DNA of 64,000 bases from Panopea generosa (Eukaryota > Mollusca > Bivalvia > Adapedonta > Hiatellidae): NCBI GenBank assembly GCA_029582155.1, contig CM055901.1, forward strand, positions 55,224,625-55,288,624, in the 5' to 3' direction. Shown piece by piece: positions 10,910 through 55,369 of this stretch (its first letter is position 1; each line of letters begins with the position of its first letter). The notes below the pieces were generated by a model that searched no databases, was not told where the DNA came from, and saw only the letters and a list, made by a program, of their open reading frames with translations. The translations under genes and the position numbers were made by a program.

Positions 10910-11129
10910 CCGCCAATCAAATTCAGTCAGAAGTTTAAGAATCCATGTTGGTACGAACGAAACGACGGAAGTGCTGGAGTGGGCAAAATACTACGCTGTT
11001 TACCGTACGTGTTTGTTATCGGCGTGAAGAAATGTGGAACCAGCGATCTCTTTTATCGATTAACTCTGCATCCCGAGTTTATCAAACCTGGGTTTAAAGA
11101 AGCTCAATGGTTTGCACGCAAACGATTTA
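10910..11129 (+). CDS. CHST15: CHST15-like exon with PAPS 5'-phosphosulfate loop
   Basis: 220 nt, entered in phase 0 after TAATTCCAG and left in phase 1 at GTAAGT. Encodes KNPCWYERND, then the 5'-PSB motif KKCGTSDLFYR and KEAQWFARKRF, all typical of the start of the CHST15 catalytic domain. The exon could be the first catalytic exon; no initiator Met or signal anchor is present in it. Confidence 0.88.
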
Positions 11130-22191: not shown

Positions 22192-25100
22192 TGAGTACAA
22201 TCAAACAGAGGAGAACGAAAAGTATGCATTCTGTGGAAAATTACAAGCGTGCTTGCCTATTATATTATATTATATTCAAATATACCTTTATATTTTTCAT
22301 TGTGTCATACTTGATTAAATAGTTAGGTTCCACAATAACCATATCTACATTTCTTACATTTCTTATTTTTTAATTATTTTTTATTTCTTAAATGTCGACG
22401 TATGTGTTTCCAGGCTATACTCCGACTACTATCACGAATATGGCTCTTTACAGTCAAAAAATACTCCAAATCCTCGCCAGTTTCACCTGGTAGTCACAGA
22501 AGGTATCAAGTTGTATCAGGACTGTTTTCAGCACCATTCGGTCAGAAGTTGTGTTTTCAACCCAAAATTAAACGGAAAGACTAGAGTAAGGTTTAACCTT
22601 TATATTTCATGCATATATGGTGAAGGTGGTGGTGGAGGTTTAGCAGTCAACTCGTCACGGAAAGGTACTATTTGCAGTTAAGGTAAACGCCAAAGAAAGG
22701 GATGAATGGTCCGGGTTGGGTACCAGTCAACAATAAGACTTGGATGACTGGTCGAGGTAGGGACCAAGTCAACACTGAGACTATGTGGACTGGTCCGGTT
22801 TGGGTACCAGTCAACACTAAGACAGGGATGACTGGACCGGGTTTGGGACCACTAAAGTAAGGGAAGTTTGGGCGGGGTTAGGTACTAGTTCACTAAAAAC
22901 GGGGAAGGCTATGCATGGTTGTGTAGCAGTAAACACCAAAGACAGGTGTGATTGGGCGGGCTTGGGCGCCAGTTCACGAAAGACAGGTGTGACCGGGCGG
23001 GGTTGGGAAACAGTTAGCACTAAAGTCAGGGACGACCAGATGGAATGGGTACTAGTTCACTAAATAGGGGTATGACTTGGCTGTGTTAGGTAACAGTTAG
23101 CAATAAAGACTGGACCGGAAGGGCAACAGCAACTATTCAATACAGGGAACATTAGGCATGGTTGGGTACCAGTTAACACTAACTGATTGTATTTATGAAA
23201 TCTTATTCGTTGACGACTATATCGGGAAATAATACAAGATTAACGTTCCGTATCCGTCCGTCCGTCTGTCCGTCCGTCAGTCAGTCCTTCGTCCTATCGA
23301 TGCAATAATATACCAAGTTCATATGAAATAAAAAGGGTACTAGGTACCTTTTAGCACCATTTGGACAATTTATTCCACGACTTTCGTTTCATATGATAGA
23401 TATTGAACAAAGTTGTTGGAAATTTGTGTCAATCCAATTTTCTAATTACTTTTGATGGGAATACATTATATATAGATGTCCTTATGCGACCTATAGAGGT
23501 TCCACATCCCGCTCTTGACTGTGATTAGAGTTGTGATTCAATACATGAATCACATGACCACTGAGTACTTACCGTGGTCACTTTAAACTTATTTTTATTG
23601 CATTGAACACATGTTCACATGAGTTTCCTGCCATAATGTAATGTGACTCATAAATATTTCGTTGAAGCTTGTATACGGTGGTAGCATAAACAACAATTAA
23701 ACATTATAAACTAAAAGTACATTAGCAATTCCAGGTAACATAGTTTCACATCACTGTCTCCAGTAATATGATTTTACATCACTGTCTCCAGTTACATTAT
23801 GAATTTGAAATCAATGTCTCCAGTTACATAATTAATTTGAAATCACTGTCTCCAGTAATATAATTTAACAACACATGTCTCCAGTAACATAATTTGACAT
23901 CACTATCTCCAGTAATATGATTTGACACCACTGTCTCCAGTAACATGATTTGACAACGCAGTCTCCAGTAAAATGATTTGACATCACTGTCTCCAGTAAC
24001 ATGATTTGACAACGCAGTCTCCAGTAACATGCTTTGACATCACTGTCTCTAGTAACATGATTTGACTTCACTGTCTCCAGTAACATGATTTGACAACGCA
24101 GTCTCCAGTAACATGATTTGACAATGCAGTCTCCAGTAACATGATTTGACATCACTGTCTCTAGTAACATGATTTGACTTCACTGTCTCCAGTAACATGA
24201 TTTGACTTCACTGTCTGCAGTAACATGATTTGACAACGCAGTCTCCAGTAACATGATTTGACAACGCAGTCTCCAGTAACATGCTTTGACATCACTGTCT
24301 CTAGTAACATGATTTGACTTCACTGTCTCCAGTAACATGATTTGACAACGCAGTCTCCAGTAACATGATTTGACAATGCAGTCTCCAGTAACATGATTTG
24401 ACATCACTGTCTCTAGTAACATGATTTGACTTCACTGTCTCCAGTAACATGATTTGACTTCACTGTCTGCAGTAACATGATTTGACAACGCAGTCTCCAG
24501 TAACATGATTTGACAACACAGTCTCCAGTAACATGATTTGACATCACTGTCTCCAGTAACATGATTTGACATCACTGTCTCCAGTAACATGATTTGACAC
24601 CACTGTCTCCAGTAATATGATTTGACAACGCAGTCTCCAGTAACATGATTTGACATCACTGTCTCTAGTAACATGATTTGACATCACTATCTCCAGTAAT
24701 ATGATTTAACACCACTATCTCCAGTAACATGATTTGACAACGCAGTCTCCAGTAACATGATTTGACATCACTGTCTCTAGTAACATGATTTGACATCACT
24801 GTCTCCAGTAACATGATTTGACATCACTATCTCCAGTAATATGATTTGACACCACTGTCTCAAGTAATATGATTTGACAACGCAGTCTCCAGTAACATGA
24901 TTTGACATCACTGTCTCTAGTAACATGATTTGACATCACTGTCTCCAGTAACATGATTTGACATCACTATCTCCAGTAATATGATTTGACATCACTGTCT
25001 CCAGTAACATGATTTGACAACGCAGTCTCTAGTAAAATGATTTGACATTATTATCTCCAGTAACATGATTGACAACGCAGTTTTCAGTAACATGATTTGA

Positions 25101-27097
25101 CAACGCTGTCTCCAGTAACATGATTTGACACCACTGACAACGCTGTCTCCAGTTACATGATTTGACATCACTTTCTCCAGTAACCTGATTTAATGTCAGT
25201 GTCTCCAGTAACATGATTTGACGTCAGTTACTTCAGTTACATGATTTGACGTCAGTGACTCGTGTAACATGATTTGATATCACTGTCTCCAGTAACATGA
25301 TTTAATATCAGTGTCTCCAGTAACATGATTTGACGTCAGTTACTTCAGTTACAGGATTTGACGTCAGTGACTCAAGTATCAGTGACTCCAGTAACCTGAT
25401 TTGACGTCAGTGTCTCAAGTAACATGATTTGACGTCAGTGTCTCCAGTAACATGATTTGACGTCAGTGTCTCCAGTAACATCATTTGACGCCAGTGTCTC
25501 CAGCTACATGATTTGATTCTTCTTGTTTACAGGGCAGATACAGCTTGGCATACACTGTCTCCAGCTACATGATTTGATTTATCTTGTTTACAGGTGCAGA
25601 TACAGCTTGGCATATACTGCGTATTTTGGGAGGAACTCACCAGACTCTTTCCAAGAGAACAGATATTAGTTTTACAAAATAAAAATCTTCGTGACAAAGA
25701 AAATACCATGCGAAGTGTTTACAACTTTCTGGAAATGAGTAAGTTTGACACAATGGAAAATTGACATAACTGGTATTCTGGATAAATAACGTATATGGTA
25801 AAAAAGGCTTATAGTTCATATAAATATCCTTTCTGCTTCAAACCTCTTTTATCAACGTTTTCGTCATTCTATTATTCATTATAACATTATTTGCAACCAA
25901 TTCATTATTAACATAATTCTCGATTATTGGTAGATTAAATACATATTATTATTTTTATTTGAGTATATCTCTGTATCCTAAAATATGATATTCATAGTAT
26001 GTCATTTGTCCAATTTTGCATTAAAACTGTCACTAGACATATGCACACTTGACCTGAATAACGCTCGATGGCAGATTTAAAGTCAAGATAAGATAATCCG
26101 TTTAACCAAAACGTATACATTCACTACACAGTTACGCCCCTTTTTAAGTGATGTAAGCACGACTTCATGCAATTTGGTCCGAAATATAGGTTCGTAAGGA
26201 CTGAAATTTCTAGGCATTAAATCATGCATATCATACACTACAATAAGATATCACTGTGCAGCATAGAACCGCTGTGGGTAGATAGGGTAAAGTAAGGGAA
26301 CCTCGTTACAAGACAATTATTAAATAAACTATAGAGTTGTCTATTCACTAGTAGTTGTATTCGTCGTTTAAAATGTTTGATATCTTTCATATTTTAATTA
26401 TTTTTCTGTATTGTTCTTTTGTATCATCCCTGGTTTTCTAATTTACGAAAGGGCTATACAAGTAATGTAGAAAACAGTGGCACTAAATGTTAAATGTCGT
26501 CTAGAGCAGTCAGGGGTAAAACTGCAAATTTGACGCTTTTACCTAGTGTACGGGTGTATTAAACTTTGACACGCCATCGTTTTCATATCTTTAAAAAAAT
26601 GTAAATAAAAATAAGAAAATGTTTCTCTGTTTTATAAGAGTTCAACAGGGTTTACATACGTATGATGCATAACACAGTTATGGTCAGGTATGTACATATG
26701 TGTACAAAAAGTATGTTAACGTTTCACTACACAGTTGCACCTCCGCTTTGTCAAGGTAAGAGGGTTCTTGCGCTTCAGAAAAGTTCCTATGTAATTTGTC
26801 TGAAATCTTTTCAAAATGACTTTTGGTGGTTGTGATGATTTCTGCAGATAATAAGAACATATTCTGGTATAGCGTACACTGCATTAAAAATCTTAGGGTG
26901 TCAATGCACTTTCTTTAAAAAAAAAACAAGCAGGTCAGTCTAAAAGTTATTGAGCATGTTTGTGTGTGGAAACATTCCTGCTATGAAATAAATACTTAAA
27001 CAAATATGTGGAATATTTTACCGTGGGCATTCTAGGCTTTTTTTATATTGAACAATTTTTGAAAGCGAAGCTAAATATAATACAACAACAACAACAA

Positions 27098-27146
<49 letters not shown>

Positions 27147-28148
27147 AATAACAACTACACAAACAACAACAATTGTCATATCTCGGCAGTGTCTACTTGA
27201 GACACCCTGATCTTTTTGATATTTTATTAGAATCATCAGAGGCATCTTAGATACTGAGTGGGAGGTTTTTTTTTTGTTGTTGTTGTTTTGTTGTTTTGTT
27301 TTTTTTTGGGGGGGCGGGGGGGTTCTAAGCACTGCAAAAAAGTATTCTGATGGCTGTCACACACACTGAAGTACCATGCCGCAGACGCATGGTATGATAC
27401 CCCACCCAGTCACATTATACTTAAACTGGGCCGACCAGACCTAGAAATTTCCTCTAAATGCTGAGCGTCTAGCGAGAAAGCTTCTAGTACCAATTTTAAA
27501 GTCTTTGGTATGACCCGGTCGGGGATCGAACCCACGACCTTCCGCATGCGAGACGGACGCTCTACCTATAGACCACGCTGCGGTAAGTATATTGAACAAC
27601 TTTCATTCAACTGTGTCGGCAGACCTAAACTTCGCACGACCCGGAGTACAACTCTCTATAAATAAATAGATATAATTATTCATGTAGTAGCTGTTCTATA
27701 AATATTTCTATATGCTTGTTTTGCATTCTGTTTGTTTATACTGTACTGAAAGTAACACATCCACGTTTGAACTTTAAAAAAAAAGTATCATAATTAAGTT
27801 ATGAGCTCATTTCTTATACAAAAGTATGATAACATTATTTAAATTTAAACCAATATCTTCAGATACACAAATTTATTTACACCCAACAAGATATATTATA
27901 AATTGTTCATGATTTTATTTAAATATAGCAACACACTTTTTTTTAAAGGAACTCTTTCTGATGCGGAGATGTACAAGGTTATAAACAGAAAAGAGACATA
28001 TCAAAGACGAGCGTCTTTCAAGAATCAAGGACCCATGTTTAACGAGACCTTCAACATGTTATATCAATTTTACAAACCATTCAACCAAAAGATGGCAGCT
28101 TTAACAGGAAGCCCAGATTTTCTTTATGCACATGATTTTAAGTCGTGA
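10910..28148 (+). CDS. CHST15: Carbohydrate sulfotransferase, CHST15-like (six exons, N-terminus not found)
   Basis: Joined exons 10910-11129, 20859-20981, 21913-22069, 22414-22585, 25594-25738 and 27949-28148 give 1017 nt in one frame ending in TGA; all splice phases agree (0, 1, 1, 2, 0, 1). The family uses PAPS to sulfate glycans in the Golgi; vertebrate CHST15 adds 6-O-sulfate to GalNAc-4-sulfate of chondroitin sulfate. Seen here: NPCWY, then the 5'-phosphosulfate loop VIGVKKCGTSDLFYR (about residues 38-52), then the 3'-phosphate-binding segment ITFRDPVERLYSDYY (about 160-174), a middle segment with VQIQLGIY, and a C-terminal FYKPFNQKM block before the stop, in the order found in CHST15. 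The 338 residues cover the catalytic domain. The cytosolic tail, membrane anchor and stem expected of a type II Golgi enzyme are missing, so 5' exons lie further upstream or were not recognised. Substrate specificity is inferred from family only. Confidence 0.88.
11130..12654 (+). other. Start of long CHST15-like intron
   Basis: Contains unrecognised open frames at 11298-11687 and 11895-12125; neither shows a family motif or flanking splice sites that fit the gene. Confidence 0.35.
12655..14255. repeat. 34-bp minisatellite (about 46 units) in CHST15-like intron
   Basis: Unit GAATGTAGAATACTCTCCTG, AAACACTCGTAATA, with GG/CG variants alternating. Three units make 102 nt, so open frames on the - strand show a 34-residue repeat. 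Lies in the intron 11130-20858. Confidence 0.93.
14262..14716 (-). mobile_element. Non-autonomous inverted-repeat DNA element, family D
   Basis: Ends are inverted: GTCTCACTACACAGTT at the left and, on the - strand at the right, GTCTCACTACAGAGTT. The interior matches 26720-26905 and 59689-59800 (CCTATxTAATTTG, TTTTCAAAATG, GGTTGTGAT). No transposase frame. It sits exactly at the end of the 34-bp array. Confidence 0.7.
14720..16215. other. Intronic sequence, nothing recognised
   Basis: Holds a short inverted repeat GCCTGATAAA / TTTATCAGGC (15239-15303). No exon-like segment. Confidence 0.35.
16220..16445 (-). mobile_element. tRNA-derived SINE, family 3
   Basis: On the - strand: B box GTTCGAATCCCCGCC, then TGATTCGAGTGGGAAAGCTA, TACTGGTTAATTCC and GGTGATCGTCTGTTAGCCCT. 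The body recurs at 20465-20660 (+), and its tail at 28330-28430 and 33556-33656. Confidence 0.75.
16840..17000 (-). mobile_element. SINE family 3 fragment
   Basis: Shares ACTGA(T/C)A(G/A)CTTTCCCACT and GAATCAGTGAT and the head-side GTGGGGATTTGAGC with the copy at 16220-16445, but is more decayed. Confidence 0.6.
17186..17465 (+). mobile_element. tRNA-headed SINE, family 6
   Basis: GCCAGACCGATGAGCTCAGT, CAGTAGAGCACGA (A box), GAGAGTTTGATACC (decayed B box) and GGCTGGCT, whose ends can pair as an acceptor stem. Followed by about 200 nt of non-tRNA body. Confidence 0.6.
17531..17752 (+). pseudogene. Unrecognised 73-codon open segment, possible exon or gene relic
   Basis: Open frame directly after TTTTCAG encodes SDEVSQVVHQDQANLLQYVL, then PEEWIVTVNQILGPCLQKVF and a Lys/Tyr-rich end, then TAA. 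Composition is protein-like, unlike nearby repeats. A further open stretch in another frame (17825-17932, DDSATTIAKINTRKNYLNGL) suggests a disrupted retrocopy or frameshifted gene fragment. No family recognised. It is inside the CHST15-like intron and does not match its phases or domains. Confidence 0.3.
18150..19025. repeat. 185-bp tandem array, about 5 units
   Basis: GGCCATTTTATGAAAAGGGA recurs at about 18152, 18279, 18463, 18648 and 18833, with AGAAAGAATGAAACAATTCT in each. The first unit is shortened. Intronic. Confidence 0.9.
19026..20460. other. Intronic AT-rich sequence, nothing recognised
   Basis: Poly(A)/poly(T)-rich, no exon-like segment or repeated block noticed. Confidence 0.35.
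20465..20660 (+). mobile_element. tRNA-derived SINE, family 3
   Basis: Matches the reverse complement of 16220-16445: GAAGGTTATCAGTTACCTG, GGAGATGTGTTTAAGTACTG, GTTAGATTAATTGATCGTCT. The tRNA head is decayed. Ends 200 nt before the exon at 20859. Confidence 0.65.
20859..20981 (+). CDS. CHST15: CHST15-like exon 2 of those found
   Basis: 123 nt between CTCTCAG and GTATGT. Phase 1 at both ends; the base A from the previous exon completes a Lys codon. Encodes NGNMDDFNNYIDMFSKAA followed by a basic segment ending YNYRQITG. Lies almost 10 kb downstream of the preceding exon, across an intron full of repeats. Assigned by phase, position and the D-x-Y-x-x-x-F pattern of this part of the family. Confidence 0.8.
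21913..22069 (+). CDS. CHST15: CHST15-like exon with start of 3'-phosphate-binding segment
   Basis: 157 nt between ATTTCAG and the donor GTTCGC (weak beyond GT). Phase 1 in, phase 2 out. Encodes GEGSPSNLHLNTHWM, then IILDYIHHFLPNAKLLITF and RDPVER, the first half of the PAPS 3'-PSB motif. The intron splits the Arg codon of this motif. Confidence 0.87.
22149..22189. repeat. (GA)n microsatellite
   Basis: Perfect AG dinucleotide run in the intron between exons 22069 and 22414. Confidence 0.97.
22414..22585 (+). CDS. CHST15: CHST15-like exon with LYSDYY of the 3'-PSB
   Basis: 172 nt between TTTCCAG and GTAAGG, phase 2 in, phase 0 out. Completes RDPVERLYSDYY, where the Arg and Ser are the PAPS 3'-phosphate ligands in this family, then HLVVTEGIKLYQDCFQ and SCVFNPKLNGKTR. 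The following intron (22586-25593) holds 45-bp and 28-bp minisatellites. Confidence 0.88.
22690..23190. repeat. Minisatellite of about 43-45 bp, about 11 units
   Basis: GGGTACCAGTCAACACTAAG followed by ACAGGGATGACTGGTCCGGG recurs with drift at 22719, 22762, 22804 and onward. In the intron 22586-25593. Confidence 0.85.
23248..23292. repeat. (CCGT)n microsatellite, imperfect
   Basis: CCGTCCGTCCGTCTGTCCGT, then CCGTCAGTCAGTCC. Confidence 0.85.
23735..25525. repeat. 28-bp minisatellite (about 63 units) in CHST15-like intron
   Basis: Unit CAGTAACATGATTTGACATC, ACTGTCTC. Variants (CAACGCAG, TTCACTG) recur in blocks, for example 23997-24175 against 24249-24427, so several units were copied together. 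The 3' end of the array runs into a partial copy of the next exon. Confidence 0.95.
25594..25738 (+). CDS. CHST15: CHST15-like exon VQIQLGIY
   Basis: 145 nt between CTTGTTTACAG and GTAAGT, phase 0 in, phase 1 out. Encodes VQIQLGIYCVFWEELTRLFP, then EQILVLQNKNLRDKENTM and VYNFLEM, matching the conserved CHST15 segment where the enzyme reads the sugar chain and dimerises. A damaged copy of its acceptor and first bases lies directly upstream at 25507-25558 (see findings). Confidence 0.88.
26120..26195 (+). mobile_element. Family D inverted-repeat element, fragment
   Basis: TTCACTACACAGTTACGCCC followed by CACGACTTCATGCAATTTGG resembles the left end of 59689-60279. Confidence 0.5.
26720..27010 (+). 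mobile_element. Family D inverted-repeat element, right end lost
   Basis: AACGTTTCACTACACAGTTG, CCTATGTAATTTG, TTTTCAAAATGAC, GGTTGTGATGATTTCTGCAG, and later ACATTCCTGCTATGAAAT as in 60184. The right terminal repeat is not recognisable. Confidence 0.6.
27084..27150. repeat. (CAA)n / (CGACAA)n microsatellite
   Basis: Runs of CAACAACAA followed by CGACAACGACAA. Confidence 0.95.
27264..27322. repeat. Poly(T)/poly(G) low-complexity tract
   Basis: T runs with GTT steps followed by GGGGGGGCGGGGGGG. Confidence 0.9.
27350..27586 (-). mobile_element. tRNA-derived SINE, family 2
   Basis: On the - strand: GCAGCGTGGTCTATAGGTAG, AGCGTCCGTCTCGCATGCGG, B box GGTTCGATCCCC, then TTAGAGGAAATTTCTAGGTC and GACTGGGTGGGGTATCATAC. 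The duplication begins inside its head, so copy 2 (32733-32812) carries only the head. Confidence 0.82.
27949..28148 (+). CDS. CHST15: CHST15-like terminal exon, copy 1
   Basis: 200 nt after TTTTTTTTAAAG, phase 1 in, ending in TGA. Encodes RTLSDAEMYKVINRK, QGPMFNETFNMLYQFYKPFN and a tail ending HDFKS. FY(R/K)PFN near the C-terminus is a family hallmark. AATAAA lies 61 nt after the stop. Near-identical second copy at 33175-33374. Confidence 0.88.
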
Positions 28149-28209
28149 TGAAAACGTCATTTTCTTCGATAAACGAAATGTCATACATACCATTTACGAA
28201 TAATGATAA

Positions 28210-28215
28210 AATAAA
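28210..28215 (+). promoter_or_regulatory. Poly(A) signal AATAAA for CHST15-like copy 1
   Basis: Canonical AATAAA 61 nt downstream of the TGA at 28148. More AATAAA-like hexamers follow within the next 90 nt. Assigned by position only. Confidence 0.5.
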
Positions 28216-28329
28216 TATACATGGGGCAATATAGTATGAAGACGGTCTGACAGCTGTAACTTAATAAAAATATCAAGAAATAAAAGAATAAAAAAGACTC
28301 CAGTACGAAATTTATTATAGATAAATTTT

Positions 28330-28435
28330 GTTTGTTTAAATATTTAGCGTCATCGAGGGCTATCAGACGATCAGTCGACCTAACCATTATTTCCTGGGAC
28401 CCTTGACGGTTAACCAGTACTTGAGCATACAATAA
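28330..28435 (-). mobile_element. SINE family 3 tail (copy 1)
   Basis: AGGGCTATCAGACGATCAGT, CCTAACCATTATTTCCTGGG and AACCAGTACTTGAGCATAC match 16254-16318. Lies just past the CHST15-like stop. Duplicate at 33556-33661. Confidence 0.65.
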
Positions 28436-29629
28436 CGGATACCCTTAGAAACGAAAAAAAATCAAAGGAGATAAATACGCATTCAACAAGTCACAGTAGA
28501 CATCTAACTACCAAAGATGCAAATATATTCAACCTGTACCTTCACTATAATATTTATATAATAACAGAAGACAACAATGTTTGTTTGCAGTATCTGAAAT
28601 AAAGATGATAATTTGTCACAAAAATAACAATCGTTTAATGGAAATAAATCGTGTTTTACAAACCATTTTTTTCAAAGCAATAGGTTAATACTCGCTCACT
28701 GTGACCTTATGACCAATAAGCACTTCCTGTCATTATTTAAACAGGTGAAATAAATTGGCATTCACTTCCGGGTTGGACTAAAATAGATTTTTTCCTGTTT
28801 AAAATTAAACCTATGTAATGTAGTATCAAATATTACGCGTGAGAATGGACTAGGACAGGAATTTAATGTCAGTTTTAAGTCTCCGATTAAAAAGTCGAAT
28901 CTGCCATGTTGTTTTGGGGGCATATGTGAAATGACATATCATTCATATTTAACTCATAACGTAGAAATAATTATATGTTGTATGTGATTTGAATGTAGTT
29001 ATAATACCCGGCATACACAAGCATACTAGATGGAAACGCATACTTAAGTTCAATCGTTAGAGGCCAATACAAATCCCTCAGATCTATATTATGTGTTGGT
29101 CCTGTCTATAATCACGAATTCGGCTATGAAGGCATTTGGCGAATGACTTAGTATGGATTATGTAGCCTCATTTTCTGATATGAGAATTAATATATATATA
29201 TATACATTATCAGCAAAAATACAAAAAAACATAGCGTGGTGAATGATAGGCCATCTAAAAGTGTTTTTCTTTAATCACACATGCTTTGTTCTACAGATAA
29301 AATCAAATATTTTTTTTGTAAATATTGTAAAAACCTGTTTTGTCACTTGATGTACAGTCGATAAGTAAAGAAAACAAGGTCATTTTGGTAACCTAATTTT
29401 AATCACTTATCTTGATCCAATATGAATACAATGTCGACGTAAAAGACTATAAACACTTGTTTGAAACTCGCTGTAAAAAAACTAGAAATGTCACTTGTAA
29501 GTATCACATTCCCTCCAATTGGTCTGTGAAAATAATGATATATGTTATAATAGGTAGCGATGTATCCATGAATATAAAGAGTAATGGACTGACATTTAGA
29601 CAAGAAACGCAATTTCATGATTTTACAAT

Positions 29630-30225
29630 AAAGTGTGACCTTGGCCTTTGTATAACCTTGACCTTGGTTTATGATGTAAAGGTCTTGGTATGTCTACAGG
29701 TATATGCAAATGGCACATCATTATGGCATGCTGATCACTTGTGCCAAGCTACTTTAAAATCCCTCCATGTAAGACATAGACCAGGCATGAAATATCAAAC
29801 AAATTGAAAGTGTGACCTTGACCTTTAAGGTAAGGTTCTGGGCCGTAGTTGATCAATTGATAAATTGAGCCATGCGTTTTTGAAATCCATCCAGGTATAA
29901 TTAAGTTACTGACCGGACTAGAAATCTCAAACAGACTTAAAGTGTTGTAAAACAAACTCAAACTGTGACCTTGACCTTTGAGGTAGGGGTGTCTTATGTT
30001 AGACACATCATCATGTCACCTTGTTAAATTGAGTCAAGTTGAAGACAAAGTAACAGACCAGACACGAAATATTATACAAATTAAAAGTGTGGCCGTGACA
30101 TTTGAGGAAAGGATCTGCGTCTTGCACGACACTTCATCATGTCATGTTGATCAACTGAGCCAAGTGTGTCTGAAATACGTCTATGTATAACAAAGTTGAG
30201 AACCAGACACGAAACCTCAAAAGGT
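29630..30225. repeat. Diverged tandem repeat with TGACCTTGACCTTT (copy 1)
   Basis: About four units of 120-155 bp each beginning GTGTGACCTTGACCTTTGAG (29634, 29811, 29966, 30088) and containing CATCATGTCA..GTTGATCAA..TGAGCCAAG and ACCAGACACGAAA. No open frame fits a known protein. Confidence 0.8.
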
Positions 30226-30764
30226 GGACAAATAAAACAGAACAAAAGTGTTATCTTCACGAAGTACCAATGTATTTTTTACTAATATATTGTATATACA
30301 ATAACAATTTTTTTTCCATATAGATAAAAGTTTGATGTAAACCTCACACTATGAATTAGAATACCACATATTGTGTTTTCCAATTAAAATCTTCACCATC
30401 AGTTTCTCGCTTTAAACCTTAATTTAGCGCCAGGTGTAATACCTTCTCTTATGTCAGTACTTAATTGAGTGGCCCTGTATTAAATAGTATTAGAGTAAAG
30501 CTATTGGTGATACAACTATTATTGTTGGCATTGGTAATAATGATGCTATAAAAACCTTTCTCAAGATAGCCCTGTATCACCAATATGTATCCCGCATTAG
30601 ATTTCATTCTGTTTTGTTCTGCTCATCAGAATTGTTACTGACCACGATCTGTTATCTTATAATGTATGCATACATGCACATTATATGCCACAATGTGTTA
30701 CATCTTTATAATTCATGAACTTTAACACACATCTGTATGTAATACTAACATTTTACATGCTATC

Positions 30765-31166
30765 AAGTTTTGCTTGCTATCATTAAGTGGCCTTGCATTA
30801 TTCAGTATTTATTCTATAAACTTTAATTGCATTTTCTCTGAAAATCTTCAGTGGATTTGCCTCATCCAATTTTGCTTGCTATTTCTAAGTGGCATTGCAT
30901 TATTCGGTATTTATTCAATAAACTTTAATTGCATTTTCTCTGAAAATCTTCGGTTGATTTGCCTAATCAAGATTTGCTTGCTATCATTAAGTGGCCTTGC
31001 ATTATTCAGTATTTATTCTATAAACTTTAATTGCATTTTCTCTGAAAATCTTCAGTTGCTTTGCCTCATCATATTTTGTTTGCTATCACTAAGTGGACTT
31101 GCATTATTCGGTAATTATTCCATAAACTTTAATTGCATTTTCTCTGAAAATCTTTATTTGACTGGC
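30765..31166. repeat. 102-bp tandem array, four units (copy 1), last unit overlaps coding exon
   Basis: TGCTTGCTATCATTAAGTGG, CCTTGCATTATTCAGTATTT and ATTGCATTTTCTCTGAAAAT recur every 102 bp. Read on the - strand each unit contains KIFRENAIKVY and a stop, i.e. the amidohydrolase C-terminus. The unit at 31071-31166 is the real coding one. Confidence 0.93.
31012..31017 (-). promoter_or_regulatory. Poly(A) signal AATAAA for amidohydrolase, distal copy
   Basis: Equivalent of 36141-36146, about 90 nt past the stop at 31104. Further AATAAA copies recur in each 102-bp unit. Confidence 0.42.
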
Positions 31167-31295
31167 CTCATCAAGTTTTGACAACAATGATTTGATGTTG
31201 TTAAAATTTTCAAAATATGTAGCATCTGCTTGACTGAACACAGGCCAATCTGATCCAAAGATACACCGGTCCGCAGTGAACACGTCCAACACATG
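31104..31295 (-). CDS. Amidohydrolase terminal exon, duplicate (copy 1, distal)
   Basis: Same 192 nt and same encoded peptide, including DRCIFGSDWPV and the stop, as 36233-36424. Preserved intact although probably not the default last exon; recent duplication alone could explain this. Confidence 0.55.
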   Translation of the reverse strand, partial: HVLDVFTADRCIFGSDWPVFSQADATYFENFNNIKSLLSKLDEASQIKIFRENAIKVYGIITE

Positions 31296-31960
31296 CTGAA
31301 AATGAAATGTTTGAAATGATAAGTACAGTACAGTAGAAATAAAATTAATTAATTTTAAATTTATCAACCAAAAGGCGAAAGAAAACATTTCAAAATGTGA
31401 TAAAACACCATTTTCAAAACTGCATTACAAATTACATGTATATATGGAGATAGTATACCCAACCCACCTAGTCTAGGGGCAACTTGCTTACTTCCTATTA
31501 AGGCAGCATCATTAGAGTCCCTGACGTGGCAGACTAGTTTGATATTGAAAATCAAGACAACGTTTAACACCGTGTCTGTTCATTCTATTTAAGCTTTGTA
31601 TTCTAGTGTGTGTATTCTTAGATTTTGTCCTATTTTATTAGCCAATGATCGTTCTTTTTTTTTCTCAAAATAAAACGTTCCATTTAACATATACTGTTAT
31701 GGCAATCATAAGATGTTGTCCTAATTTCCCAGTCAACGAATTTTCCCTAAGAACTACAGTAGATCAACATCTAAGTCGGTTTCTTATCTATAGAAAATAT
31801 GTCTAAATTAGGTATCTCACAACCAAAAAAGCATTATAGTATCATGATAATTAGATGACAGACTATGTGTGTAAATAGAAGCCTGCTATAAATTCAACAT
31901 CTATATTTCATCGATGTATTAATGGTATATTAATGACATTAGTACAGGTTATATACTTAC

Positions 31961-32027
31961 ATCAATGAACGGCTGAAAGTTGACCTGTTTCCAGACATCA
32001 GGGGTCAACTCTGATATTAAACCTGAT
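31961..32027 (-). CDS. Amidohydrolase exon 7, duplicate (copy 1, distal)
   Basis: Same splice sites and peptide as 37090-37156. Lies 3' of a complete terminal exon set, so it would be used only if transcription passes 36233 and the proximal pair is skipped. Confidence 0.55.
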
Positions 32028-32732
32028 CTAAAATATATTTATAGAAGTTAGTTTAAACGTGTTTTCTTTCACATCAAATGTGAAACATTTTTTTACGCTC
32101 GACGGTGTCCTGCAACAGTACCAAGCATAAACATATACAGTGTATTAACGCCATGTGTATTGCATGCATGGCACGTAACAATCTTTATAGCACTAACAGA
32201 ATGACTCCGAATTCATTATAAACATCAGAATAGTGTTGCTTGACCAGTATTTTATATCATGGAAGACCATGCAATGGACACAAAGCATGTAACGTTGGAA
32301 TGGAATCATGTATTCTCTTGGTATCTTACAGATGCAATCATGTCATTGCCATATTTAAATTTTTAACGCAACAACTGTTGTGGTCCTTTGGTAGAGTGAA
32401 TGTCTCATATACAGAAGTGTGTTAGTTGATCCTCGATCATGTCATACCAAGCTAAAATAGGAACCAGAAGCTTCTTCAGTTGTACCTAACATTTAGAGCT
32501 TAGTTCAGTTGGTGGCATAATGTGACAGTACGTAGATTACTGTCTCAAGTAGACGCAATCATAATAGGACTAGAACATTGCTGATAGCCATGTACTGAAC
32601 ACAATACATTTTAATCAGCAATAAAGACATATATAAATAGTATTATCATCAATAAATAGAAATACCATAATCATTAACAAAATGCAATAACAGCATGATC
32701 ATAAATAAATCATGTCATAAATAATAACTTAA

Positions 32733-32812
32733 GTATGATCCGGTCGGGGATCGAATCCACGACCTTCCGCATGCGAGACGGACGCTCTACCAATAAGACC
32801 ACGCTGCGGTAA
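32733..32812 (-). mobile_element. SINE family 2 head, truncated by duplication breakpoint
   Basis: Same tRNA-like head with B box GGTTCGATCCCC on the - strand, reading GGTCTTATTGGTAGAGCG for the A box; the body is missing because the duplicated block starts here. Confidence 0.8.
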
Positions 32813-33174
32813 GTATATTGAACAACTTTCATTCAACTGTGTCGGCAGACCTAAACTTCGCACGACCCGGAGTACAACTCTCTATAAATAAAAAGATATA
32901 ATTATTCATGTAGTAGCTGTTCTATAAATATTTCTATTTGCTTGTTTTGCATTCTGTTTGTTTATACTGTACTGAAAGTAACACATCCACGTTTGAAATT
33001 TAAAAAACTAGTATCATAGTTAAGTTATGAGCTCATTTCTTATACAAAAGTATGATAACATTATTTAAATTTAAACCAATATCTTCAGATACACAAATTT
33101 ATTTACACCCAACAAGATATATTATAAATTGTTCATGATTTTATTTAAATATAGCAACACACTTTTTTTTAAAG

Positions 33175-33374
33175 GAACTCTTTCTGATGCGGAGATGGAC
33201 AAGGTTATAAACAGAAAAGAGACATATCAAAGACGAGCGTCTTTCAAGAATCAAGGACCCATGTTTAACGAGACCTTCAACATGTTATATCAATTTTACA
33301 AACCATTCAACCAAAAGATGGCAGCTTTAACAGGAAGCCCAGATTTTCTTTATGCACATGATTTTAAGTCGTGA
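33175..33374 (+). CDS. CHST15: CHST15-like terminal exon, copy 2 (in tandem duplication)
   Basis: Same acceptor, length, frame and stop as 27949-28148. I see one nucleotide difference within the 200 nt, TAC to GAC, changing EMYKV to EMDKV. It has its own AATAAA. It could act as an alternative last exon if copy 1 is skipped or the transcript reads through, or be an unused duplicate. No further copy of the upstream exons precedes it, so it is not part of a second complete gene. Confidence 0.6.
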
Positions 33375-33435
33375 TGAAAACGTAATTTTCTTCGATAAAC
33401 GAAATGTTATACATACCATTTACGAATAATGATAA

Positions 33436-33441
33436 AATAAA
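33436..33441 (+). promoter_or_regulatory. Poly(A) signal AATAAA for CHST15-like copy 2
   Basis: Duplicate of the signal at 28210, 61 nt past the copy 2 stop, unchanged in sequence. Confidence 0.45.
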
Positions 33442-33555
33442 TATACATGGGGCAATATAGTATGAAGACGGTCTGACAGCTGTAACTTAATAAAAATATC
33501 AAGAAATAAAAGAATAAAAAAGACTCCAGTACGAAATTTATTATAGATAAATTTT

Positions 33556-33661
33556 GTTTGTTTAAATATTTAGCGTCATCGAGGGCTATCAGACGATCAG
33601 TCGACCTAACCATTATTTCCTGGGACCCTTGACGGTTAACCAGTACTCGAGCATACAATAA
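33556..33661 (-). mobile_element. SINE family 3 tail (copy 2)
   Basis: Duplicate of 28330-28435 within the segmental duplication. Confidence 0.65.
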
Positions 33662-34857
33662 CGGATACCCTTAGAAACGAAAAGAAAAATCAAAGGAGAT
33701 AAATGCGCATTCAACAAGTCACAGTAGACATCTAACTACCAAAGATGCACATATATTCAACCTGTACCTTTACTACAATATTTATATAATAACAGAAGAC
33801 AACAATGTTTGTTTGCAGTATCTGAAATAAAGATGATAATTTGTCACAAAAATAACAATCGTTTAATGGAAATAAATCGTGTTTTACAAACCATTTTTTT
33901 CAAAGCATTAGGTTAATACTCGCTCACTGTGACCTTATGACCAATAAGCACTTCCTGTCATTATTTAAACAGGTGAAATAAATTGGCAATCACTTCCGGG
34001 TTGGACTAAAATAGATTTTTTCCTGTTTAAAATTAAACCTATGTAATGTAGTATCAAATATTACGCGTGAGAATGGACTAGGACAGGAATTTAATGTCAG
34101 TTTTAAAACTCCGATTAAAAAGTCGAGTCTGCCATGTTGTTTTGGGGGCATATGTGAAATGACATATCATTCATATTTAACTCATAACGTAGAAATAATT
34201 ATATGTTGTATGTGATTTGAATGTAGTTATAATACCCGGCATACACAAGCATACTAGATGGAAACGCATACTTAAGTTTAATCGTTAGAGGCCAATACAA
34301 TTCCCTCAGATCTATATTATGTGTTGGTCCTGTCTATAATCACGAATTCGGCTATGAAGGCATTTGGCGAATGACTTAGTATGGATTATGTAGCCTCATT
34401 TTCTGATATGATAATTAATATATATATATATACATTATCAGCAAAAAAACAAAAAAACATAGCGTGGTGAATGATAGGCCATCTAAAAGTTTTTTTCTTT
34501 TATCACACATGCTTTGTTATACAGATAAAATCAAATATTTTTTTTGTAAATATTGTAAAAACCTGTTTTGTCACTCGATGTACAGTCGATAAGTAAAGAA
34601 AACAAGGTCATTTTGGTAACCTAATTTTAATCACTTATCTTGATCCAATATGAATACAATGTCGACGTAAAAGACTATAAACACTTGTTTGAAACTCGCT
34701 GTAAAAAAACTAGAAATGTCACTGGTAAGTATCACATTCCCTCCAATTGGTCTGTGAAAATAATGATATATATGTTATAATAGGTAGCGATGTATCCATG
34801 AATATAAAGAGTAATGGACTGACATTTCAGACAAGAAACGCAATTTCATGATTTTAC

Positions 34858-35460
34858 AATAAAGTGTGACCTTGGCCTTTGTATAACCTTGACCTTGGTT
34901 TATGATGTAAAGGTCTTGGTATGTCTACAGGTATATGCAAATGGCACATCATTATGACATGCTGATCACTTGTGTCAAGCTACTTTAAAATCCCTCCATG
35001 TAAGACATAGACCAGGCATGAAATATCAAACAAACTGAAAGTGTGACCTTGACCTTTGAGGTAAGGTTCTGGGCCGTAGTTGATCAATTGACAAATTGAG
35101 CCATGCGTTTTTGAAATCCATCCAGGTATAATTAAGTTACTGACCGGACTAGAAATCTCAAACAGACTTAAAGTGTTGTAAAACAAACTCAAACTGTGAC
35201 CTTGACCTTTGAGGTAGGGGTGTCTTATGTTAGACACATCATCATGTCACCTTGTTAAATTGAGTCAAGTTGAAGACAAAGTAACAGACCAGACACGAAA
35301 TATTATACAAATTAAAAGTGTGACCGTGACATTTGAGGAAAGGATCTGCGTCTTGCACGACACTTCATCATGTCATGTTGATCAACTGAGCCAAGTGTGT
35401 CTGAAATACGTCTATGTATAACAAAGTTGAGAACCAGACACGAAACCTCAAAAGGTGGAC
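34858..35460. repeat. Diverged tandem repeat with TGACCTTGACCTTT (copy 2)
   Basis: Counterpart of 29630-30225 in the duplicated block, with a few substitutions. Confidence 0.8.
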
Positions 35461-35995
35461 AAATAAAACAGAACAAAAGTGTTATCTTCACGAAGTACCA
35501 ATGTATTTTTTACTAATATATTGTATATACAATAACAATTTTTTTTCCATATAGATAAGAGTTTGATGTAAACCTCACAATATGAATTAGAATACCACAT
35601 ATTGTGTTTTCCAATTAAAATCTTCACCATCAGTTTCTCGCTTTAAACCTTAATTTAGCGCCAGGTGTAATACCTTCTCTTATGTCAGTACTTAATTGAG
35701 TGGCCCTGTATTAAATAGTATTAGAGTAAAGCTATTGGTGATACAACTATTATTGTTGGCATTGGTAATAATGATGCTATAAAAACCTTTCCCAGGATAG
35801 CCCTGTATCGCCAATATGTATCCCGCATTGGATTTCATTCTGTTTTGTTCTGCTCATCAGAATTTGTACTGACCACGATCTGTTATCTTATAATGTATGC
35901 ATACATGCACATTATATGCCACAATGTGTTACATCTTTATAATTCATGAACTTTAACACACATCTGTATGTAATACTAACATTTTACATGCTATC

Positions 35996-36295
35996 AAGTT
36001 TTGCTTGCTATCATTAAGTGGCCTTGCATTATTCAGTATTTATTCTATAAACTTTAATTGCATTTTCTCTGAAAATCTTCAGTGGATTTGCCTCATCCAA
36101 TTTTGCTTGCTATTTCTAAGTGGCATTGCATTATTCGGTATTTATTCAATAAACTTTAATTGCATTTTCTCTGAAAATCTTCGGTTGATTTGCCTAATCA
36201 AGATTTGCTTGCTATCACTAAGTGGACTTGCATTATTCGGTAATTATTCCATAAACTTTAATTGCATTTTCTCTGAAAATCTTTATTTGACTGGC
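35996..36295. repeat. 102-bp tandem array, three units (copy 2)
   Basis: As 30765-31166 but one unit shorter; the unit nearest the gene is again the coding tail. Confidence 0.93.
36141..36146 (-). promoter_or_regulatory. Poly(A) signal AATAAA for amidohydrolase, proximal
   Basis: AATAAA on the - strand about 90 nt past the TAA at 36233, inside the first 102-bp repeat unit beyond the coding one. The same place in the coding unit reads GGAATAATT, so the signal exists only in the duplicated non-coding units. Confidence 0.45.
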
Positions 36296-36424
36296 CTCAT
36301 CAAGTTTTGACAACAATGATTTGATGTTGTTAAAATTTTCAAAATATGTAGCATCTGCTTGACTGAACACAGGCCAATCTGATCCAAAGATACACCGGTC
36401 CGCAGTGAACACGTCCAACACATG
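36233..36424 (-). CDS. Amidohydrolase terminal exon (copy 2, proximal)
   Basis: 192 nt after TTTTCAG, ending TAA at 36233. Encodes HVLDVFTADRCIFGSDWPVF, then a helical tail ending FRENAIKVYGIITE. GSDWP carries the catalytic Asp. Nearest to the upstream exons, so most likely the used copy. Confidence 0.9.
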   Translation of the reverse strand, partial: HVLDVFTADRCIFGSDWPVFSQADATYFENFNNIKSLLSKLDEASQIKIFRENAIKVYGIITE

Positions 36425-39400
36425 CTGAAAATGAAATGTTTGAAATGATAAGTACAGTACAGTAGAAATAAAATTAATTAATTTTAAATTTATCAACCAA
36501 AAGGCGAAAGAAAACATTTCAAAATGTGATAAAACACCATTTTCAAAACTGCATTACAAATTACATGTATATATGGAGATAGTATACCCAACCCACCTAG
36601 TCTAGGGGCAACTTGCTTACTTCCTATTAAGGCAGCATCATTAGAGTCCCTGACGTGGCAGACTAGTTTGATATTGAAAATCAAGACAACGTTTAACACC
36701 GTGTCTGTTCATTCTATTTAAGCTTTGTATTTTAGTGTGTGTATTCTTAGATTTTGTCCTATTTTATTAGCCAATGATCGTTCTTTTTTTTTCTCAAAAT
36801 AAAACGTTCCATTTAACATATACTGTTATGGCAATCATAAGATGTTGTCCTAATTTCCCAGTCAACGAATTTTCCCTAAGAACTACAGTAGATCAACATC
36901 TAAGTCGGTTTCTTATCTATAGAAAATATGTCTAAATTAGGTATCTCACAACCAAAAAAGCATTATAGTATCATGATAATTAGATGACAGACTATGTGTG
37001 TAAATAGAAGCCTGCTATAAATTCAACATCTATATTTCATCGATGTATTAATGGTATATTAATGACATTAGTACAGGTTATATACTTACATCAATGAACG
37101 GCTGAAAGTTGACCTGTTTCCAGACATCAGGGGTCAACTCGGATATTAAACCTGATCTAAAATATATTTATAGAAGTTAGTTTAAACGTGTTTTCTTTTA
37201 CATCAAATGTGAAACATTTTTTTACGCTCGACGGTGTCCTGCAACAGTACCAAGCATAAACATATACAGTGTATTAACGCCATGTGTATTGCATGCATGG
37301 CACGTAACAATCTTTATAGCACTAACAGAATGACCCCGAATTCATTATAAACATCAGAATAGTGTTGCTTGACCAGTATTTTATATCATGGAAGACCATG
37401 CAATGGACACAAAGCATGTAACGTTGGAATGGAATCATGTATTCTCTTGGTATCTTACAGATGCAATCATGTCATTGCCATATTTAAATTTTTAACGCAA
37501 CCACTGTTGTGGTCCTTTGGTAGAGTGAATGTCTCATATACAGAAGTGTGTTAGTTTGATCCTCGATCATGTCATACCAAGCTAAAATAGGAACCAGAAG
37601 CTTCTTCAGTTGTACCTAACATTTAGAGCTTAGTTCAGTTGGTGGCATAATGTGACAGTACGTAGATTACTGTCTCAAGTAAACGCAATCGTAATAGGAC
37701 TAGAACATTGCTGATAGCCATGAACTGAACACAATACATTTTAATAAGTAATAAAGTCATATATAAATAGTATTATCATAAATAAATAGAAATACCATAA
37801 TCATTAACAAAATGCAATAACAGCATGATCATAAATAAATCATGTCATAAATAATAACTTGACATCACATTATTATTAATAATATTGTTATTAATAAATA
37901 GAAGTACCATTATCATTAATAAAATGCCATAACAACATGATCATAAATAAGAATAAATGTCATAAATAACAATTTGACATCACATTATTATAAATAATAT
38001 TGTTATAAATAAATAGTAATGTCCTTATAATTAATAAAATGTCATAATAACAAAATAATACAATATCATAAATTACAATGTCATAGATAATATTGCTTTA
38101 ACAGATAATGTCAGACAAATATTATAACTAATTACATTGCCATATATAAACCGAAAACAAGGTCATAAAAGGAACATCATACATTTTACAATACACATTT
38201 GGGAATGCTGCTATTGCCGACATGTCCTCTTTCCAACCATCAAGTTTACCTTCTCTTACAGGTGGTTTGGCAATGTGGTTGACAATAAACTTCATGCTGA
38301 AAAATAAACCAAATACAAAAATAACAAAGAGCATCGACAGGTGCAATTTGTTTTTAACTTGAATAGATCAATCTAGGTGTTCGTTCGGTCTTTCGGTTTT
38401 ACCAGTCACCCCAAATAACGCATGATTGAAATTGAGCTCACAATATAAAAACAGGTACATTTGAATGAGAAACTTTGTGTATAATGACTTATTTACTAAC
38501 ATTTTGTATGGTATGCCGTGGACAGTCAATAATATAAATTTCATAATTTAAGGGCAGTAACTCTGTAGTGATATTACAGTGTTTTCGACCGTTTTAGATA
38601 GAAGGCAGTAACTCTATTGTGATCATAGTGTTTTCGACCGGTCTAGGGGAACTCATCATATCACAGAAAAACATATCTGTGCAAATTGTCAAACTTATAT
38701 CCCTCTGCCTTTGATGAGAGACAAAACGGGATTAATAATTATTTATATCTTGATTACATGAAAGCTTGACTTAGCAAATTTAAACCGGTCTTGATATTAC
38801 GGCGAGGGTAGTTTGTTGAAAATTAGGTTTAACACTTAGACAGTTGGTAGTTTATCAAGTGAAATTTTAACCAAAAAAATCAAATCAACATTTACCCATG
38901 GCCGGTCGATATTGTTTGTTTTAAACACATATAATATCCAAACACTTAATGTATATATGTTTTCGTTATGGCAAGTTCAGAATAATATTTGCTCATACAC
39001 ATTAATGTACATAAACAACGACTGTCGGGATTTTAGATAACTCAATAAACACAAGAAAGTAAATCAAAGCGAATACCGATACATGAATGAAGTTTTCTAG
39101 ATACATAGCTATTAGCGCGATATATTGCAAGTCTCCATGGAGCCTCCTTAGGCTACTTTGCGTCTCCCGAAACGTCAGATATGCAAATATGCTCTATATT
39201 ATCAGGCTACAAAGATATACATAAAAGCAGCTATTAAAATACATGTAATTATGCTAAACATAGGAAATAACTTAGTTATAAAACCCATGCATTTCCGTTT
39301 GACACTTGGTGTTTGTTTACACATCTGTAAACTTTTCTTTCATTATCTTTATCAATTATTAAAAATTCAAGAATGCATACAAAAAGTAAAATAGAAATCT

Positions 39401-42400
39401 TGAGTAATTGATTTCTTGTCTAAACCTTCTTAATAAATAATAAAATTGCATATACGCAGCTGAGCATGTATACAATTTGACCTATACTTTGGACAGTTGA
39501 GTTATAAATGTAAAATTCTGCAGTTAATAATACCTGGGGTGTGCAGACACGACTTTTGGTACGTGTTTCAAGTGATTCGGCCTACAAAGGAAATGAAACA
39601 TTAAGAAGTAATACCAAGTATCAACAAGTAATAAAGATCTAGTTTCTGGCAACATTATAAAAATATTCAACTCAAATTGAAGCCATGGCTATAATCAAAC
39701 GATTGAACAATATGTGTAATAATGACAATCCTACAATACCTGCAATTTTCATGTAGTAAAATAACATTTGGCTTATGAAACATCTCTTACATGTCTTTTA
39801 AAAAAACAAAGAAATTTCTCTGTAAACTCCACCGTGTAGTAGCGTTTTAAAAATGTTGCGAAAAGCACAGTCTTAGAATTACAAACTAATCTTTATGTTT
39901 ACCATTGTTTGTAAAAACGTTTTTATTTACATTTATTTGAATTTTATATGAATATCTCTTAAACATTCCTCGTAAGATAACTCTGCAATCCATTACTGCA
40001 TCTCTTATGTTTTTGAAGGTTTTTATTTTGCGTCTTTTGAAACAGCACGTCGTATAGCCAAATAATAAAAATCAGTTGATGGTCTAACGGATCTCCGGCT
40101 GATGTTTTGTAACACAATTGTGTTAACATTGGTAGAAATATTTATACTGGCAATATTTTTCAATTATGAAGATAGATAGGCAAAATTATTAATTATAATA
40201 AAATAACTTAACACATAACAAACACATAACAAACACATAACCAACGATTAGTACTATTCATGAGGTGTTTCCGTACGGGATAAGTGAAAAACACCGAAAT
40301 ACTAAACGATTTGGAAATGTGATAAACAGTTTCTTCAATCGTCTTCGTGAATGACGGTGAATTCAATCACTCGAGGAGTGGCTACGGTCTGTGTTCATTG
40401 GTATTACAATGACCAACGGCTCCCTGGTTACACCACTATCAACATACCATTGCTTCAAACCAATAAAGAACGACGCTACCCAAGTTTCATTTTATTAAAC
40501 ACGTTCACCACTGGGCTCAATAATTATTTCAAAATTATTATTAGACAGCGTGATGGCGCTAATGTCATGAAAATAGAATATATTCATTAACATTCTAAAA
40601 ACCGTTACCTGCTGAATAAAAATATCTTAAAGATTTATTTTTCATTTATAACGAAACCTGTTCGCCAAACGGAACCGTTTGTATTAATTTGAAAACTATG
40701 TTTTACTTTTATTTTTTTAACCAGTACAGGAATTGATCTAGACTCTTTTGTCGTCATGTCATTTTATTTCCTAAATGTCACCTTCTTTTGTCAAACTATG
40801 AGCTTTTGTATTATCTATATGTTGCATTTTGCAAAATCCATTATTGTCAGTACATTCTTGTCATACACCAAGCATATACTTTTTATGTAACACTTTTTGG
40901 TCAATAGTTTTGCGCCATTGCCTTTCCTATTTTTTATTTCTTAATACACTTTGAGAAAAAAAAGTTTTACCTCACAAGCAAGTCGTAAGTCATGTTGTAT
41001 TTTGATAAGACGTCAAAACCTTTATTGACGTCATCTCGTGTTATCCAATCATCTTTCTCCACGTCCAGTATATGTCGCACACCTTTAAGGAGACCGGTCT
41101 GTTGCAATGACACTATTATTTCTTCTAGCTAGAGTGTATAATAAAATGAATAAATATACAAGTATGCCTTTTATTTTGAGCAGCTTCGGAAGCATGATCT
41201 AATTAATTGTTTTTATTTCTTGGGTTGAGCATTGACACATAAATCACTGATCACTTGTTTCAAGTTACATTGTGAATTTGACCTTTAGTTGGGAGTCTGG
41301 GTGTTAAGTGCGACACATAAAAAAATATTAAATGCATTAAAGGCAAGATATAAATACATATACAATTATGACACAATGAACATCTGCGAAGTAAATGGGC
41401 ACTGAGCAGCATGAAATGCAATTGTAAATGATACCAAACCACAGGCCCTTATATGTTCATAACACATGAATATTCAATATGTAAACACACATTAATGTTA
41501 AGGTAGGTTACCCAGTGGCAAGTTAAAATTAGGTCCATAAGTATAAAGTGTGATTTTTATAAGATACATTTTAATATTTGTTATCTATATATTTTGTGCT
41601 ATGTTACTACTGAAAACGTTTAAATTGTAACATGCTATTATAACACCCTTCGGAAATTTTCTGTGATTTAATTGGTTGTTGCTCTTTGATTTGCAGGTAT
41701 AAAAAATACAAAAATCCAACACGTTTTCGCGTTATATGTAGTATGTAGAGTACGTTATTTGTTTACAATGGCAAACCCCACTTTAAACAGTGTAAACAGT
41801 AGTTTAAATAGATCACCAAATCTGTCTGTCGATTTGAATTTACTTTTTATTTGTTAAGTTGTATTTATAGTTGCATTAAATATTTTGAACAGTTGGACGA
41901 TTTTGATTTTTTCAAGGAACTACTTTTATAGCGCATATATTGCTGACATGCGTCATTCGGCTAAACAGTGGGTAATTTAATCACTAGTAGCTCGAGTAAC
42001 TTGGTTCAGCGAGCGAATTTTAAGATTTAAACGTATAAGTGCGTGAGAATAGTTCTAACTATACTATAACTAGAATATTCTAGAAATGTTGGTGACGTTA
42101 CAATTACCAAATGCTGCCTATCAATTGTGGATCTTCCGTGGCCGATTGGTCTAAGTTGACTCCTAAAGTTATTAATGTAATCAAAATTTATAATTATTTG
42201 TATTCAATAGTTTAGTGTTCCTTCACCAATAAATTAGAATGTCTAACATTGTTTAAAAAGGGGCAATGAAACCTGTACCAAACGTGGATGTATTCGGTTG
42301 AGGGAATAAAAGGGTTACATTTAGTATAAATTCACTAATTACTTCGAAGCCCGATAAAATTAAAACTTTGTTGAAAGAAAAACTCCACAAAACTTGTTCG

Positions 42401-49732: not shown

Positions 49733-49946
49733 TATATACGCCACGGGATGGGAAAACAAACACGTGTAGTGAAGTTGCACTCACTCACTCACTCACTCAC
49801 TCACTCACTCACTCACTCACTCACTCACTCACTCACTCACTCACTCACTCACTCACTCACTCACTCACTCACTCACTCACTCACTCACTCACTCAATCGT
49901 GCAACTTCACTACACGTGTTTGTTTTCCCACCCCGTGGCGTATATA
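49733..49946. mobile_element. Palindromic element: 48-bp inverted arms around (CACT)n
   Basis: Left arm 49733-49780 (TATATACGCCACGGGATGGG, AAAACAAACACGTGTAGTG, AAGTTGCAC) is the reverse complement of 49899-49946 with one mismatch. Between them about 28 units of TCAC. Likely a MITE whose interior is, or was replaced by, a microsatellite. The Leu-Thr-His-Ser frame across it is not a gene. Confidence 0.85.
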
Positions 49947-55134: not shown

Positions 55135-55365
55135 CTGTACACTCTAATACTATTTTGACAAATTAAATTGAAAAAAATAATCAACATGAATACGGCTCGA
55201 ATTTGCAACATTTGGGTTGGAAGTTCGAACGGTTACCACTACGTTATCTGAACAGACACTAGTACAACACACTATATATTGATACCTAGTTTATTTTATC
55301 GTTTTATAGTTTATGCAACAGATAAACTTGCTGTCATACTACAAACACCCCTAATACGGTAGGTT
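55135..55365 (-). mobile_element. SINE family 5, right arm of inverted pair
   Basis: Same blocks on the - strand, ending CATACTACAAACACCCCTAA TACG. The LINE remnant begins immediately after it. Confidence 0.75.
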
Positions 55366-55369
55366 CCAT

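Follow-up and report, generated by a model that had tools for sequence, protein, structure and literature searches.

A 5.2-kb tandem duplication across the tail-to-tail junction of two convergent genes in the Panopea generosa assembly, probably a recent leftover

When the segment in which two convergent genes end is present twice in tandem, each gene has two sets of terminal exons, and the question arises which of them it uses and whether the second set matters. The arrangement occurs in a 64,000-nucleotide (nt) stretch of the bivalve Panopea generosa (NCBI GenBank assembly GCA_029582155.1, contig CM055901.1, positions 55,224,625 to 55,288,624 of the forward strand; henceforth ‘the window’, in whose coordinates all positions are given), where a sulfotransferase gene on the plus strand and an amidohydrolase gene on the minus strand meet tail to tail. 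An earlier description made without database searches (henceforth ‘the sequence-only reading’) had claimed that a 5.2-kb block over this junction is duplicated and had offered alternative 3' ends, mutual antisense regulation or recency as its meaning. The duplication is present in the given sequence as described and, among the three interpretations, recency is favoured: the extra tails are most likely the recent leftover of an ordinary partial tandem duplication, probably with no effect.

Comparison of the window with itself by blastn yielded two direct matches, 27508-31078 with 32733-36309 (98.2% identity, bit score 6252) and 30867-32730 with 35995-37860 (97.9% identity, bit score 3229), which are not chance matches, and a repeat finder that allows no gaps placed the copies at an equal offset of ~5.13-5.23 kb. 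In a global alignment of copy 1 (27508-32730) with copy 2 (32733-37860), 57 of the 5121 aligned bases were mismatched (29 transitions and 28 transversions; 98.9% identity over aligned bases), and the copies further differed by six indels of 1, 2, 2, 1, 102 and 1 nt. As expected of a true tandem duplication, the copies are adjacent and in the same orientation, a single novel junction separates them and the outer flanks are continuous. Along the plus strand the last exon of the sulfotransferase gene is followed by the last and penultimate exons of the amidohydrolase gene, and both then occur again; this order and the exon coordinates agree with the sequence-only reading, and splice sites and stops are intact in the near and the far terminal set of each gene. 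The modelled introns of both genes have GT donors and AG acceptors, and the terminal exons join the upstream exons in frame.

The partial model of the plus-strand gene comprises upstream coding exons at 10910-11129, 20859-20981, 21913-22069, 22414-22585 and 25594-25738 and a near last coding exon at 27949-28148 (200 nt including the stop), which has an AG acceptor and a TGA stop and completes an open partial protein of 338 residues. This protein scored above the curated Pfam cut-offs for Sulfotransfer_3 (PF13469; 40.7 vs 27 bits) and Sulfotransfer_1 (PF00685; 29.5 vs 22 bits). Without the last exon the scores were 40.6 and 27.7 bits, respectively, i.e. Pfam barely scores that exon, and its support comes from its frame, its splice sites and a C-terminal alignment to the end of the heparan sulfate 3-O-sulfotransferase 1t8t. 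With a preliminary joined query, 13 of the 14 matched solved sequences carried heparan sulfate sulfotransferase names. The label CHST15-like, given to this gene by the sequence-only reading, fits the general character of the CHST15 protein and is putative as regards orthology to vertebrate CHST15. The far last coding exon (33175-33374, also 200 nt including the stop) carries the one missense difference claimed for it (T at 27972, G at 33198), by which Tyr281 of the partial model becomes Asp; this is the sole residue change of the far variant, the exon encoding 66 residues in all, of which the first comes from a split codon. The 150 bases that precede the exon (27799-27948 in copy 1) are identical between the copies, and AATAAA hexamers follow at four matching places (28210, 28263, 28279 and 28287 behind the near exon; 33436, 33489, 33505 and 33513 behind the far one). 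Further upstream, a 61-nt tandem duplication (25495-25619, 93% matches) covers the end of an intron and the first bases of exon 25594-25738, where it creates a second, upstream acceptor-like site; it adjoins a 28-nt array at 23730-25516.

On the minus strand, upstream coding exons at 44357-44518, 43477-43553, 40971-41128 and 38183-38296 lead to a near penultimate coding exon at 37090-37156 (67 nt) and a near last coding exon at 36233-36424 (192 nt including a TAA stop), and the far counterparts of these two lie at 31961-32027 and 31104-31295 (67 nt and 192 nt including the stop, respectively). The sequence-only reading had numbered them exons 7 and 8; the terminal exons were found where it had placed them, but only six coding exons of the amidohydrolase gene could be modelled. 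A motif search detected no further exons upstream of 44518: when an exon with the metal-binding HxH motif was sought between 44.5 and 64 kb, the search returned four rows, none of them convincing. With either terminal set the model gives an open partial protein of 255 residues, and the near and far proteins are identical, the one difference in the 259 coding nt (at 32012 and 37141, in the penultimate exon) being silent, as had been claimed. The partial protein scored 112.7 bits with Amidohydro_2 (PF04909; curated cut-off 26.4) and matched one solved sequence, the amidohydrolase 4dlf. It also matched the L-fucono-1,5-lactonase model NF052480 at 133.3 bits (E 1.2e-38), which is far below the equivalog cut-off of 400, and the product, scored as a partial protein, is described here as a relative, not as that enzyme. 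Near exon 7 one base differs between the copies, 43 nt upstream, and around exon 8 (30760-31395) the copies show no substitution, only the 102-nt indel. This indel belongs to a tandem array of 102-nt units, ~4 in copy 1 (30762-31180, minus strand; AATAAA at 31012, 30910 and 30808) and ~3 in copy 2 (35993-36309, minus strand; AATAAA at 36141 and 36039), whose first unit begins within the coding end of exon 8 and whose other units lie behind the stop. The extra units are decayed copies of the segment encoding the amidohydrolase C-terminus, equipped with AATAAA hexamers, and the unit that was aligned only in copy 1 still encodes DEAKQLKIFRENAIKVYRINTE behind stop codons.

How, then, are the two sets of each gene placed with respect to transcription? 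The plus-strand gene meets copy 1 first and the minus-strand gene meets copy 2 first. On its way to the far exon at 33.2 kb, a plus-strand transcript has to pass through the far set of the minus-strand gene (31.1-32.0 kb), and a minus-strand transcript bound for its far set has to pass through the far exon of the plus-strand gene. The interlocked geometry of the sequence-only reading thus holds for far-set transcripts of either gene, but neither gene needs its far set, since the near set of each is complete, with splice acceptor, stop and polyadenylation hexamers. The near-set models do not overlap and, judged from the AATAAA positions, would end ~7.8 kb apart (at 28.2 and 36.0 kb). The far sets bear no mark of breakage and no mark of use in their sequence, neither of which is surprising at 1.1% divergence.

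The explanation that we consider probable, on the evidence of the sequence, is a recent and true tandem duplication in which the near sets are in use, the far sets are orphans, both genes are whole and a conversion event came later. A 5.2-kb segment over the tail-to-tail junction would have been duplicated head to tail by an event resembling end joining that made use of no more than 3 bp of homology. The block contains only the 3' ends and no upstream exon of either gene, and the duplication therefore would break neither. Each gene would splice to the first terminal set that it meets (copy 1 for the plus strand, copy 2 for the minus strand) and polyadenylate there; the plus-strand exon in copy 2 and the minus-strand exons in copy 1 would be left as orphans between the genes, transcribed only when termination fails. 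As the predicted far products are identical to the near one (amidohydrolase) or a one-residue variant of it (sulfotransferase), use of the far sets would add little. That the duplication exists in the animal, that the near sets serve and the far sets do not, and that conversion followed are all steps that we infer from the features set out here.

The boundaries of the block bear on how it arose. At the novel junction (32731-32732) the copies are separated by 2 nt (AA), which may also be read as CTT microhomology of 3 bp with two substitutions after it. The left boundary lies within a 254-nt SINE-like (short interspersed element-like) sequence on the minus strand (27387-27640) with a tRNA-like (transfer RNA-like) head and a box-B-like GGTTCGATCCC, the head inside the block and the body to the left of it; the label and the box-B motif are our interpretation and do not come from a repeat library. 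This element is uninterrupted to the left of copy 1, whereas copy 2 begins with a truncated version of it (32733-32866). Conversely, an AT-rich tandem array of ~115-bp units (37762-38052) extends past the right end of copy 2 (37860) and breaks off where copy 1 ends (32730). Since both are continuous on the outside and cut at 32731, the outer flanks look like the original ones and only one joint is new. Non-allelic recombination between SINE copies is an unlikely origin because no SINE-like sequence was found at the right end: when the window was searched for the 254-nt element, the eight rows returned were the element itself, its truncated version at 32733, two related pieces within 47622-47729 that match part of the body and part of the head, and four matches of 16-22 nt, none of them at the right boundary. 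End joining would be the simplest cause. In the window as a whole ARAGORN detected no tRNA genes, and no known structured RNA reached its gathering score.

We next consider how the differences between the copies are distributed. The sequence-only reading had held that the coding parts are less changed than the non-coding ones; this is so numerically (2 of 459 vs 55 of 4662 bases mismatched), but the difference is not significant (Fisher p=0.24), and constraint on the duplicate exons is unproven. What does stand out is a near-identical tract at 30636-32011, a candidate for gene conversion, which contains one mismatch in 1274 aligned bases and the 102-nt indel, compared with 56 mismatches in 3847 aligned bases outside it. 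The tract is mostly non-coding, and non-coding mismatches alone number 1 of 1031 bases inside vs 54 of 3631 outside. Its limits were set after the data had been viewed, and only permutation values are fair. A stretch as long with no more than one mismatch was rare among permutations both with the 102-nt array included (p=0.0001, 20000 permutations) and with the array excluded (43 of 20000 permutations), and so was a wholly identical stretch as long as the longest one with the array included (p=0.00125). The homogeneity signal in the tract is thus moderate, and gene conversion after the duplication probably re-homogenised ~1.3 kb.

Several observations weigh against this account. With the array excluded, the longest wholly identical stretch was not significant (1079 of 20000 permutations, p=0.054), and the homogeneous tract, which contains the 102-nt indel, also fits allelic ancestry or polishing. 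Moreover, AATAAA is common in this AT-rich stretch (35 occurrences on the plus and 15 on the minus strand between 27.5 and 38 kb), so that the hexamers here are weak evidence of polyadenylation sites. Finally, the 1.1% difference between the copies is compatible with two alleles. This last point leads to the most probable of the rivals, i.e. that the assembler set two alleles of one locus in tandem (a false heterotype duplication), which we nevertheless regard as unlikely. Substitutions at ~1.1% together with indels that include a difference in tandem-array length resemble allelic variation, haplotypes normally differ as a mosaic in which some tracts are near-identical and others more divergent, and the relevant passages of PMC9516828 describe false tandem placements by which exons are duplicated. 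However, the assembly gap between copies that is usual, though not obligatory, according to the same passages is lacking here (the window contains no N), and only 2 nt lie between the copies, which share no overlap longer than 3 bp on which an overlap assembler could have based the join. That the join is gapless and poor in overlap favours a real duplication without proving it.

If the duplication is real, both terminal sets might be used, as tandem-duplicated alternative last exons that yield isoforms or different 3' untranslated regions (UTRs). Both copies can be spliced in the same frame and each has its own stop, as alternative terminal exons should, and both retain intact acceptors, stops and AATAAA hexamers. 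The 67-nt exon 7 shifts the frame when both copies are included or when it is skipped, and hence only exclusive use of one copy would be productive. Duplicated terminal exons are, moreover, used alternatively in oyster AOX (PMC5589949, in part) and in fly pip (PMC9013439, in part). Nevertheless, intact signals are expected at 1.1% divergence, the coding parts show no significant excess of conservation, and the AATAAA hexamers behind the near exons should end most transcripts. The near and far products are nearly identical, and the diversified coding expected of such exons was not found (1 of 66 residues in the plus-strand exon and none in the minus-strand exons). In one crude test, the introns that lead to the near sets showed no excess of RNA pairing of their unduplicated with their duplicated part, since dinucleotide shuffles paired at least as strongly in 40 and in 92 of 100 cases; many of the inverted repeats inspected by eye are A/T- or ACA-rich. 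We therefore find use of both sets improbable. Much less probable still is a reciprocal switch, by which read-through past a near polyadenylation site would give access to the far exons and at the same time run antisense across the far exons of the other gene, so that the 3' ends of both genes would have been coupled in one mutational step and possibly kept uniform by gene conversion. Antisense coupling is possible, with the geometry as its support and nothing beyond it. The weakest proposal, that read-through transcripts of both genes overlap at ~30.8-33.5 kb and repress each other, would be expected on geometric grounds were both genes transcribed as far as their far sets, but it needs simultaneous failure of termination in both, the near-set models being free of overlap, and we consider it scarcely credible.

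Other tandem arrays are frequent in the window (28 rows of Tandem Repeats Finder at a score of at least 100, some describing one array), which counts in favour of the explanation preferred here; the long ones include 635-5713 (~66-nt units), 12665-14251 (~34 nt), 18189-19021 (~185 nt) and 45886-46769 (~24 nt). A perfect (CACT)n run of ~30 units occupies 49778-49895, flanked, as judged by eye, by similar sequence in opposite orientations. A reverse-transcriptase fragment on the plus strand (55363-55830; PF00078, E 7.6e-08) was read as a LINE-like (long interspersed element-like) remnant.

If real, the locus would offer a clean example of an early stage in the origin of duplicated terminal exons, in which a single event gives two convergent genes spare last sets. 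Should the far sets be used, it would become possible to follow how alternative last exons and antisense overlap begin to evolve, before the copies diverge; should the locus be single-copy in reality, it would be a caution for the annotation of such loci. Among the matches listed in a literature search that covered titles and the beginnings of abstracts, with few subscription journals, there was no single block whose duplication doubles terminal exons of both members of a convergent gene pair. A close parallel is CvAOX of Crassostrea virginica, in which, according to the relevant passages of PMC5589949, terminal exon 10 and part of the 3' UTR are tandemly duplicated. As in that gene, the last coding exon with its stop is duplicated in tandem here and either copy gives a protein of equal length. 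In CvAOX, however, the duplication is old, with a similarity of 63.5% between the copies, and both copies are expressed and shift under stress, whereas the present copies are ~99% alike and share their block with a second gene on the opposite strand. In the fly, pip is likewise a sulfotransferase gene with tandemly repeated alternative 3' terminal exons. It has eight tandem terminal-exon clusters, and the choice of the 3' variable region in pip and PGRP-LC is reported to involve competing RNA structures (passages of PMC9013439); here there are two near-identical copies and the single crude test detected no such structure. Recent tandem duplications that end inside genes occur in a population sample of Drosophila yakuba, where the passages of PMC5460883 concern whole-gene copies, chimeras and 5'-end blocks and a block of two 3' ends is not among them. 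A heterozygous duplication of the terminal exon of human LRRTM4, detected by array in one family, also spans a last exon and runs past the gene; it measures at least ~60 kb and its orientation is not resolved in the passages of PMC8774418, whereas the copies described here are direct, in tandem and 5.2 kb long. The false heterotype duplications of PMC9516828 resemble the present locus in that near-identical copies with some exons of a gene lie next to each other, but in the passages concerned most are separated by gaps or joined by sequence without read support, and the join here is gapless. Overall, the present locus is a younger case of the duplicated terminal exons already known, and nothing about it is new except the sharing of the block by two convergent genes.

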